A stretch of 64,000 bases of DNA from Streptacidiphilus sp. 4-A2 (GTDB lineage: Bacteria > Actinomycetota > Actinomycetes > Streptomycetales > Streptomycetaceae), in assembly GCA_014284505.1 (NCBI GenBank), contig JAAFYY010000001.1, positions 2,666,001 to 2,730,000 on the forward strand, given 5' to 3'. A model generated the notes under the pieces. The model was not told the origin of the DNA. It saw only the letters and a program-made list of their open reading frames with translations, and did not search any database. Position numbers and translations under genes: made by a program. Below, in pieces: positions 26,721 through 30,718 of this stretch (the stretch's first letter is position 1; each line of letters begins with the position of its first letter).

Positions 26721-27572
26721 ATGGAGCTACGTACTCTGCGCTACTTCGTGACGGTCGCCGAGGAACTCCACTTCGGCCGGGCCGCCTCCCGGCTGCACAT
26801 GAGCCAGCCGCCGCTGAGCCGGGCGATCAAGCAGCTGGAGACCGATCTCGGTGCCAGACTGCTCGACCGCTCGTCCGCGGGTGCCACGCTCACTCCGGCG
26901 GGGGCGGTGCTGCTCGACGAGGCGCGCGCCCTGCTCGACCAGGCCGAGCGGATCCGGGTCCGGGTGGCCGCGAAGGCCGGCGCCGCGGTCCTCACCGTCG
27001 GCATGCTGGGCGACAGCACCGACCCGGGCGCGACCCGGCTGGCCGCCGCCTACCGCCGACGGCATCCGAACGTCGAGGTCCGCGTCCGCGAGACCGACCT
27101 GGCCGATCCCACCTGCGGGCTGCACGCCGGGCTGGTCGACATCGCACTGACCCGCGCGCCTTTCGACGAGACCGGCCTGACGGTGCGGCAGTTGCGCGCC
27201 GACCCGGTGGGTGCACTGCTGCGGGCCGACGATCCGCTGGCCGGGCACGGCACGCTGAAGCTGGCCGACCTGGCCGATCGCCGCTGGTTCCTGTTCCCGC
27301 AGGGGACCGATCCGCTCTGGCAGTCGTACTGGAACGGCGGCGAACCCCGCGAGGGCCCGGTGGTGCGCGCCGTCCAGGAGTGCCAGCAGGCCGTTCTGTG
27401 GAACGGCACGGTCGGCATGACCCTCCTGGACCACCGGCCCGCCGCCGGGCTCACCGTGGTGCCACTGGTCGACATGCCGCCCAGCCGCGTGGTGGCGGCC
27501 TGGAACGAGGGCGACGGCAATCCGCTGATCGACTCGTTCGTCCGGATCGCGACCACTGCCTACCGCGACTGA
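26721..27572 (+). CDS. LysR family transcriptional regulator
   Basis: Intact, 283 residues. HTH 'MELRTLRYFVTVAEELHFGR' and 'AASRLHMSQPPLSRAIKQLE' is classical LysR; the rest is the periplasmic-binding-like effector domain ('VLTVGMLGDSTDPG', 'LVDIALTRAPFDETGL'). It diverges from the cupin-DoxX operon, with a LysR box in between, and most likely activates it. Effector unknown. Confidence 0.9.
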   Translation: MELRTLRYFVTVAEELHFGRAASRLHMSQPPLSRAIKQLETDLGARLLDRSSAGATLTPAGAVLLDEARALLDQAERIRVRVAAKAGAAVLTVGMLGDSTDPGATRLAAAYRRRHPNVEVRVRETDLADPTCGLHAGLVDIALTRAPFDETGLTVRQLRADPVGALLRADDPLAGHGTLKLADLADRRWFLFPQGTDPLWQSYWNGGEPREGPVVRAVQECQQAVLWNGTVGMTLLDHRPAAGLTVVPLVDMPPSRVVAAWNEGDGNPLIDSFVRIATTAYRD

Positions 27573-27631: not shown

Positions 27632-27684
27632 TTGTCAGGGATTCCCTGACATTCTAGGCTGTCAGGGAATCCCTGACAGCCTAG
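27632..27684 (+). promoter_or_regulatory. Promoter covered by two large palindromic operators
   Basis: Palindrome 1: tgtcaggga-t-tccctgaca (27633-27651), perfect 9-bp arms. Palindrome 2: 15-bp arms, left ctaggctgtcaggga (27654-27668), centre a, right arm its exact reverse complement (27670-27684). The shared core is TGTCAGGGA-N-TCCCTGACA. TTGTCA (27632-27637), a 17-base spacer and TAGGCT (27655-27660) form a promoter on the + strand, so the first palindrome covers -35/spacer and the second -10/start. The downstream gene at 27694 has its own HTH and may autoregulate. Confidence 0.85.
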
Positions 27685-27693
27685 GAGCGTGCT

Positions 27694-28071
27694 GTGACGA
27701 CCCTTCCTGATCCCCTGGGCGAACTCGCCCGGTGTTCCTTCTGCCGTAAGCCGGGCGCCGAGGTCGGCAAGCTCGTCGCCGGCGCCGGTGTCTACATCTG
27801 CAACGAGTGCGTGGCACTGTCCGTGTCGATCATCGAGGGCAGCCCCGGCAGCAGCCCGGCCGGGGCAGGCGGGCCGATGTGGGAATCGATGGCGGACGGG
27901 GAGATGCTGAGCCACATCCCCCGCGTCGCCGCACACATCGACCAGGCCGAGGCCGACCTGCGCGCCTGGGTGCAGGAGCTGCGCCGACGCGGCGTCGCCT
28001 GGGCCAGGATCGGGGAAGCCCTCGGAATCACCCGCCAGTCCGCGTGGGAGCGGTTCTCCGGCGAGGAGTGA
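27694..28071 (+). CDS. ClpX-type C4 zinc finger protein with C-terminal HTH
   Basis: Intact, 125 residues. N-terminal '[20 protein letters not shown]' plus 'YICNECV' is the CxxC-N19-CxxC zinc finger of ClpX, but no AAA+ ATPase follows. The C-terminus '[20 protein letters not shown]' and '[10 protein letters not shown]' is a helix-turn-helix. GTG 27694 starts right after the second palindrome. A zinc-binding adaptor or repressor is possible; stand-alone ClpX zinc fingers with HTH are common but uncharacterised in actinobacteria. Confidence 0.82.
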
Positions 28072-28292: not shown

Positions 28293-30718
28293 GTGTCCAG
28301 ATCCCGTTCCCGGCTGCTGACCGCCACCCTCGTGGTGAGCGGCCTGGTTGCCGCCGTCGCCCTCGTGCCCTCGGCAGGCGCGGCGGCGTCCCCCAACGTG
28401 GTGATCAGCCAGGTCTACGGCGGCGGCGGCAACTCCGGCGCCACGCTCAAGAACGACTTCATCGAGCTGCGCAACAACGGGACCGCCCCGGTGGATCTCA
28501 GCAGCTGGTCGGTGCAGTACATCTCGGCGGCCCCGGGGACGAGCACGACCTGGCAGTCCACGCCCCTCACCGGGTCCATCGCCGCCGGCGGCTACTACCT
28601 GGTCCAGGAGGCCGCGGGCGCGGCCGGCACCCAGGGCCTGCCGGCGCCGGACGCCACCGGATCGGTCAACCTGAGCGGCACCTCCGGCACGGTCGCCCTG
28701 GTGACCTCGCAGACCCCGCTGAGCTGCAAGACCGCAGCGGACTGCGCGGCGGACAGCAGCATCGGGGACCTGGTCGGCTACGGCACCGCGGTGATCGACC
28801 AGGGCAGCGCGGACGCGCCCCTGCTCAGCAACACCACGGCCGACACCCGCGACGCCAACGGCGCCGACACCGGGCAGAACGGTGCGGACTTCACCGCCGT
28901 CGCGCCCGACCCGCACAACTCCGCCTCGGGCACCGGCTCGGCCTCGCCGACCCCCAGCCCGACACCGACGCCGGGCAGCGTCCGGATCCACGACATCCAG
29001 GGCACCAGCTGGATCTCACCGCTGAACGGACAGGCCGTCAGCAATGTCCCGGGCATTGTCACCGCCGTCCGCACCAGCGGCAGCAAGGGATTCTGGATAC
29101 AGGACCCCACCCCCGACAACAACCCGGCCACCAGCGAGGGCATCTTCGTCTACACCGACGCGGCGCCCACGGTCTCGGTCGGCGACTCGGTCCTGGTCTC
29201 CGCCAAGGTCCAGCAGTACTACCCGCTGGCCAGTGGCGACACCACGGCGACCACCTCCAACCTCAGCGTCACCGAGCTGACCGGCCCGACCGTGGTCACC
29301 CTCAGCAGCGGCAACCCGCTGCCCGCGCCGATCGTGCTCAGCGCCGCCGACGTGCCCGCCACCTACGCCCCTGATCTGGGCGGCGGCAACATCGAGAGCA
29401 CGCCGATCACTCCGAGCCGCTCGGTGCTGGACTTCTACGAGTCCATCGAGGGCATGCGGGTCGAGGTCGACAACGCCCGGGTCGTCGGCCCGTCCGACTC
29501 CTACGGCGAGCAGTACGTCACGGTCAAGCCCGACGAGGACACCACCTACCGCGGCGGCAGCGAGCTCCTCGCGGAGAACGCCACCCCCTCCGGACGGCTG
29601 GAGGTCGTCGCCGACGACGGCAGCAACCCGGAGGTGAGCGTCGGCGACGAGTTCACCGGGGCCACCATCGGCACCGTCGACTACTCCCAGTACGGCGGCT
29701 TCGTGCTGGCGGCCTCCACCCTGGGCACCGTTCAGCACAACAACCTGGCCCCGGTCGTGGCCACCGCCGCCAAGCCGCGTGACCTCTCGATCGCCACCTA
29801 CAACGTGGAGAACCTGGCCCCACCGACCCGGCCACCAAGTTCTCCGCGCTGGCCAAGGGCATCGTGGTCAACCTCGCCAAGCCGGACATCATCGCCCTGG
29901 AGGAGATCCAGGACAACTCCGGCGCGACCGACGACGGCACTGTGGCCGCCGACGTGACCATCGGCAAACTGACCTCCGCGATCACCGCCGCCGGCGGGCC
30001 GCAGTACAGCTACCGCGAGATCGACCCGGTCAACGACCAGGACGGCGGCGCGCCCGGCGGCAACATCCGGGTGGTCTTCCTGTTCGACCCCTCCCGGGTC
30101 TCCTTCGTGGACCGGGGCCCGACCGGCGTCGACCGCAGCACCACCGGCACCGAGGTGACCAAGGTCCACGGCCGCCGCAGCTGACCCTCTCCCCCGGCCG
30201 CATCGACCCGCAGAACCCGTCTGGGAGGACAGCCGCAAGCCGCTGGTGGGTGAGTTCGACTTCCAGGGCAAGCCGGTCTTCGTGATCGCCAACCACTTCG
30301 TGGCCAAGCTCGGCGACCAGAACCAGGACGGGCGCTTCCAGTTCCCGGAGCAGTCCTCGCAGGTGCAGCGCTCCGGGCAGGCCCAGGTGGTGCACGACTT
30401 CGTGCAGCAGATCCTGGCCATCAAGAAGAACGCGGACGTGGTCGTCGTCGGCGACCTCAACGACTACCAGTTCAGCCCGGCGCTCATGTCGCTGACCACC
30501 GGCACCTCGGACGGCACCGGCCCGTCGCTGCTCACCGACCTGATCACCAAGCTGCCCGTGGACGAGCAGTACACCTACTACGAGGGTTCCGAGGTCCTGG
30601 ACCACATCCTGGTGAGCCGGGCCGTCACGGGACCGTCTACCAGGTCGTGCACATGAACTCCGAGTACGCCAACCAGACCAGCGACCACGACCCGCAGGAG
30701 GTCCAGTTCCGCCCGTGA
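28293..30718 (+). CDS. Secreted ExeM/NucH-type nuclease with lamin-tail domain, four frameshifts
   Basis: About 808 residues. Sec signal peptide (1-31, ending 'GAAA'), lamin-tail domain ('VVISQVYGGGGNSGATLKND' then 'FIELRNNG', about 35-150), Ser/Pro/Thr linker, OB-like region, and a C-terminal endonuclease/exonuclease/phosphatase domain: 'SIATYNVENL', 'IIALEEIQDN', 'VIANHF', 'VVGDLNDYQ', 'VLDHILVS' and 'TSDHDPQ' hold the expected catalytic Asn, Glu, His, Asp and final Asp-His. Breaks near 29820, 30172, 30222 and 30635. GTG 28293 has 'aggagga'. Extracellular DNA degradation, probably for nutrient scavenging. Confidence 0.88.

Follow-up and report, generated by a model that had tools for sequence, protein, structure and literature searches.

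A predicted single-target autoregulator that joins a ClpX-type zinc-binding domain to a ClpC2-family helix-turn-helix

The window analyzed here, a 64,000-nucleotide stretch from Streptacidiphilus sp. 4-A2, contains a gene (27694–28071, + strand, GTG start) predicted to encode an autoregulator of 125 amino acids in which a ClpX-type C4 zinc-binding domain (ZBD) is joined to a helix-turn-helix (HTH) domain. What the sequences provide is the domain composition of the protein, the operators and their conservation, a single target, covariation between recognition helix and operator, and homology to ClpC2 and RelI. Autorepression of the ZBD-HTH gene appears very probable, and we favor with moderate confidence a model, drawn by analogy, in which the autorepressor would be released by a ligand of the ClpX ZBD and would thus constitute the ClpX-side analogue of ClpC2.

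The operator pair and its promoter

The first-pass annotation had described a 19-bp and a 31-bp palindrome with centers 27 bp apart, which cover the -35/spacer and the -10/start of a TTGTCA-N17-TAGGCT promoter, and the coordinates bear this out. Operator 1 (TGTCAGGGATTCCCTGACA, 27633–27651) overlaps the -35 hexamer and the spacer, and operator 2 (TGTCAGGGAATCCCTGACA, 27660–27678) begins at the final -10 base and runs through the likely start point. Neither is assigned to a strand, both are kept in orthologues, and both are perfect 19-bp palindromes about a central base (27642 and 27669, respectively). The palindrome of operator 2 grows to a perfect 31-mer (27654–27684, likewise without strand). 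This extension is present at this locus and in a few relatives only, however, and the family-wide operator is instead a core of 17 to 19 bp.

When up to three mismatches to the 19-bp pattern were allowed, the window yielded 2 matches versus 0.03 expected, and the whole genome (9.05 Mb) yielded operators 1 and 2, one further match with three mismatches, and no more. Perfect inverted repeats with 9-bp arms and a 1-nt gap are not rare here, with 4 in the window versus 1.3 in shuffled sequences. Because such repeats are not unusual in this GC-rich window, we place weight on the repetition of one sequence and on its conservation rather than on palindromicity.

The -35 hexamer TTGTCA (27632–27637, + strand) is the same in 41 of the 50 orthologue loci that carry two operators. 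The -10 hexamer TAGGCT (27655–27660, + strand) follows at a spacing of 17, and TAnnnT occurs at exactly N17 in 34 of these 50 loci and at N18 in several others, such that the promoter recognized in the first pass is both present and conserved. A likely Shine-Dalgarno sequence, AGGAG (27683–27687, + strand), can be read 6 nt upstream of the GTG start. The distance between the two operators ranges from 20 to 41 bp among orthologues; its two peaks, 27 and 38 bp, lie about one helical turn apart and may be explained by relatedness. This spread does not support a strict helical phasing of the operator pair. Because the operators sit on the promoter and yet at a variable mutual distance, the arrangement is suited to steric repression. 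In some Nonomuraea the start codon lies inside the second operator, and in the KQAAW group the second operator stops a few bases upstream of the ATG. The clpC2 gene, which is leaderless, has a comparable operator placement near its start (PMC10030653).

The protein, its distribution and its sites

The gene downstream had been read as a ClpX-like C4 zinc finger joined to an HTH, and domain searches agree. Pfam PF06689 matches residues 13–48 (E = 2.6e-16, 59.7 bits, cut-off 27), and the ClpX-type domain (27730–27837, + strand) contains Cys14, Cys17, Cys36 and Cys39. It is followed by a variable linker, a long helix and the C-terminal HTH (residues 103–121; 28000–28056, + strand), for which AF2 places helices at 103–110 and 114–121, the recognition helix being TRQSAWERF (28030–28056, + strand). 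In a Pfam scan of the 125-amino acid protein, zf-C4_ClpX alone scored above the cut-off, with no AAA+ match and no Clp_N repeats, and a separate clpX is also present in the same genome. The modeled ZBD fits the Escherichia coli ClpX ZBD (2ds5/2ds6), superposing on 2ds5–2ds8 at 0.6–1.6 Å over 40–44 residues with 50–54% identity. Note that the pTM of the AF2 model is low (0.47) and that the mutual arrangement of ZBD and HTH is not fixed by it. With Foldseek and VIA-align the ZBD gave clear matches and the HTH weak ones (Fis-like, Z about 4.5); 8ada and 9sdc were absent among the structural matches listed, although sequence profiles did recover both. Elsewhere in the window, a lamin-tail/nuclease-like gene (start 28293) seems to shift frame near 29.8 kb (29780–29960), which is likely a sequencing indel.

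Among 100 relatives, 18 have an orthologue. Orthologues also occur in named genomes, including those of Streptosporangium, Nonomuraea, Microbispora, Kribbella, Amycolatopsis, Arthrobacter and a Mycobacterium sp., and about 44 of 395 genomes from the class carry a ZBD-HTH gene. The distribution is patchy, with the gene present in 7 of 14 genomes of its own genus and absent from all 40 genomes of a large sister genus. A plasmid of Streptomyces zaomyceticus and a PLSDB-listed replicon of Nonomuraea gerenzanensis carry full-length copies, and a search for phage copies returned none that was full-length. Two MAGs labeled Phenylobacterium (Pseudomonadota) also contain ZBD-HTH genes with GTCAGG operators (L049 and L052), which reflect either cross-phylum transfer or contig misassignment.

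A near-exact search for the 19-mer in relatives matched only one other genome, a result that is explained by the more relaxed pattern of the family. Sites that differ from GTCAGG-N5-CCTGAC at no more than one position are present at 61 of the 62 loci scanned (which include three repeats of the same gene), and 50 loci have two of them. After identical HTH sequences were dropped, 58 genes with an intact helix remained, and all 58 have upstream sites of the GTCAGG-N5-CCTGAC type, usually two. The GTCA/TGAC portions are exact in both half-sites for 57 of these genes, and the remaining one (L046) has one mismatch per site. The sole locus without a site (L050, from Nocardia aurantia) encodes a degenerate helix, SVETARLRF, instead of (T/S/A)RQSAWERF. 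The first-pass annotation had left it to be seen whether the motif follows this gene family or is absent upstream of orthologues; operators accompany every orthologue whose helix is intact.

To define the regulon, we scanned 24 gene-bearing genomes with the exact pattern YGTCAGG-N5-CCTGACR, and looser sites may therefore exist. Of 51 occurrences, 44 are located at the promoter of the ZBD-HTH gene itself, and the other 7 compare with 5 for a reversed control pattern. Six off-gene sites were inspected: three belong to inverted repeats that resemble terminators, two of them next to secA-like sequence, and three overlap long open frames. No zinc, redox or other genes stood out as carrying an exact match in these 24 genomes. 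Conserved neighbor genes were not found except among three close Nonomuraea species, and the other shared neighbor clusters are mostly small or consist of frames that overlap the ZBD-HTH gene itself. Judged by its sites, the ZBD-HTH protein is a single-target autoregulator. Because there is one target and the neighbors are not conserved, the gene product itself should be the effector.

Related HTH proteins and helix–operator covariation

Alignment of the HTH with the ClpC2 family gave an hhalign probability of 97.3% (E = 2.1e-11), and hmmsearch recovered RelI (9sdc, E = 1.8e-10) and Rv2667 (8ada, E = 0.017). The same HTH is also found in Clp_N-fused (ClpC2-family), DUF3887-type and other proteins, and these families have related operators of the form GTCAnn-N5-nnTGAC. 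The dinucleotide that distinguishes them is GG for ZBD-HTH, AC for the ClpC2 type, AG for the DUF3887 type (few exact sites) and GC for L170 (one gene). Across families it changes with the recognition helix, with SAW helices paired with GG, SAH with GC, AAQ with AC and AAF with AG. In the helix motif (R/K)Q-x1-x2-x3, S or T at x1 accompanies G and A accompanies A, and at x3, W or F accompanies G and Q or H mostly C; there are exceptions, and the AVQ and AVH types are mixed. G occupies half-site position 5 for 169 of 173 S/T helices versus 15 of 36 A helices (Fisher p about 1e-15, a value that ignores relatedness). In the tree of the ZBD family, the S-to-A helix change represents at least two events, and AG half-sites occur in both groups. 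We regard this covariation as the strongest sequence evidence that the ZBD-HTH protein would read its sites.

The D46–R57 salt bridge that is required for ClpC2 dimerization (PMC10030653) aligns, at the level of sequence, with E/D86 (18/18) and an invariant R97, and both Phenylobacterium sequences lack the acidic residue. The 8ada structure (Mycobacterium tuberculosis ClpC2, residues 4–72) stops at V72, just ahead of the helix TKQAAQKRF, which its relatives have too. By covariation this ClpC2 helix should read the operator, whereas the authors of 8ada assigned DNA contacts to the C-terminal domain instead.

Several other genes with this HTH were observed. The same genome holds a ClpC2-type gene (L233, G000:C4:716835-717071) with two GTCAAC-N5-GTTGAC operators, whose frame breaks right after KQAA, possibly through an assembly indel (genome completeness 76.5%). 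L162 and L166, with their relatives L163–L165, encode HTH proteins of 209–214 amino acids that we infer to be of the DUF3887 type from PMC13284704. Upstream of them lie operator pairs, for example GTCAAGG-N3-CCTTGAC and GTAAAGG-N3-CCTTTAC, and these genes are apparently autoregulated too. L170 (G045:C48:54200-56315) encodes 267 amino acids with the helix TRQSAHKRF downstream of two GTCAGC-type palindromes and may be another sensor built on this HTH.

A candidate ClpX-side counterpart of ClpC2

The nearest precedent is ClpC2, which autorepresses via CGTCAAC-N5-GTTGACG, often in two copies across the -35/-10 region (Taylor et al. 2023, PMC10030653). Cyclomarin binds a domain common to ClpC1 and ClpC2 and lifts repression, and ClpC2 then serves as a sponge (PMC10030653); a 2026 study found ClpC2 induction to be ligand-specific (PMC12913811). 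The RelI paper connects ClpC2, RelI and DUF3887/DUF2812 fusions (PMC13284704), and its main text makes no mention of ClpX, zinc or a ZBD fusion.

Like ClpC2 (M. tuberculosis Rv2667), the ZBD-HTH protein has a homologous HTH, two pseudopalindromic GTCAnn-N5-nnTGAC operators on its own promoter, and, as its sensor, a copy of a Clp-unfoldase docking domain. The domain order differs, with the HTH preceding the Clp_N repeats in ClpC2 and the ClpX ZBD preceding the HTH here, as do the operator (GTCAAC versus GTCAGG) and the partner unfoldase (ClpC1 versus ClpX). Autorepression and the cyclomarin response have been demonstrated for ClpC2, whereas the ZBD-HTH protein is likened to it from sequence; because it lacks the cyclomarin-binding Clp_N repeats, it does not count as a ClpC2, although it may function in a similar way. 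The RelI antitoxin belongs to the same HTH family (PDB 9sdc), and its DUF3887/DUF2812 fusions are also stand-alone genes, but RelI has no zinc domain and is partnered with the RelS toxin. The ClpX ZBD (PDB 1ovx, 2ds5–2ds8) shares the fold and the four cysteines, but the ZBD-HTH protein has no AAA+ module and is joined to an HTH. Both the HTH family and the principle of an autorepressor that acts as a sponge were already known. The open-licence PMC literature searched yielded no description of the fusion to a ClpX zinc domain, of its operator or of its single-target circuit, and the text matches to the half-site, among those listed, looked unrelated by title and abstract. The first pass did not recognize the system from the literature and missed the closest parallel, the ClpC2/RelI HTH with its two-operator promoter.

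The ZBD of ClpX is a docking site for adaptors and substrates. In the model that we favor, two homodimers of the autorepressor would sit on the GTCAGG-N5-CCTGAC operator pair and keep the TTGTCA-N17-TAGGCT promoter of their own gene, the sole target, blocked. A ligand of the ClpX ZBD, whether a small molecule, an adaptor, a foreign inhibitor protein or a misfolded substrate, would bind the copy of this domain in the N-terminal half and lift repression, and the released protein would accumulate and compete with ClpX for the ligand. We infer repression rather than activation, dimerization, ligand-induced release and sponge function; the presence of operators by itself would suit an activator too. 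A role directed at ClpX ligands, or as a decoy, we consider about an even proposition. The ZBD residues that are retained mostly serve the fold, zinc and the core, so conservation cannot tell a decoy from structural reuse. We know of no natural ligand of an actinobacterial ClpX ZBD that would fill the part of cyclomarin.

The switch envisaged in the first-pass annotation was autoregulated, which the orthologue operators support, and possibly zinc- or redox-sensitive, for which only the cysteines speak. Zinc loss or oxidation of the C4 site could alter dimer geometry and free the operators, and the four cysteines are indeed invariant in 55 ZBD-HTH sequences, with a fifth (C43) common. However, the same four are likewise invariant in ClpX, whose zinc site has a structural role, no zinc or redox genes stood out as carrying the exact operator, and a self-only target would give such a sensor no output. 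We judge this trigger unlikely. Somewhat less doubtful, although still improbable, is a proteostasis feedback in which the autorepressor docks with ClpX or is itself degraded by ClpXP, such that busy ClpXP would mean less repression and the protein would sense ClpXP load instead of sponging up a ligand. ClpX ZBDs dimerize (1ovx), so mixed ZBD dimers with ClpX can be envisaged, and heat induces ClpC2 about twofold (PMC10030653), but the single target again demands that the product be the output.

Two other readings dispense with the protein. The palindromes might act as RNA, forming attenuator or terminator hairpins, since either could fold as a short hairpin if transcribed. Operator 1, however, holds the conserved -35 hexamer and would lie upstream of the transcript, and the half-site sequence is kept beyond what mere pairing demands and covaries with the recognition helix. 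On position and covariation, we reject this highly improbable reading. Another regulator might use the sites, for example the adjacent LysR-type protein encoded upstream (ending at 27572), as LysR-type sites can be palindromic. Because neighbors are not conserved and the operators track the ZBD-HTH gene across orders, this is the most remote of the readings.

Within the ligand-released autorepressor model, we tentatively entertain the narrower possibility that the protein evolved to mimic the ClpX docking domain as a decoy and, under its own repression, serves as an inducible sponge that detects and absorbs attackers of ClpX such as natural products, phage or plasmid inhibitors and rogue adaptors. 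If so, ClpX would be guarded as ClpC1 is, through a copy of the targeted domain that the cell can induce, and together with ClpC2 this would describe a modular actinobacterial defense in which each Clp unfoldase has its docking domain copied onto a common HTH whose two-residue operator code is readable. The promoter would in that case offer a ready reporter of ClpX zinc-domain binding by compounds or proteins; we know of no natural-product ligand of that domain. Presence of the gene would also warn of intrinsic resistance to drugs or degraders directed at the ClpX ZBD. The correspondence between helix and operator over four subfamilies offers a simple route to finding and assigning new members.
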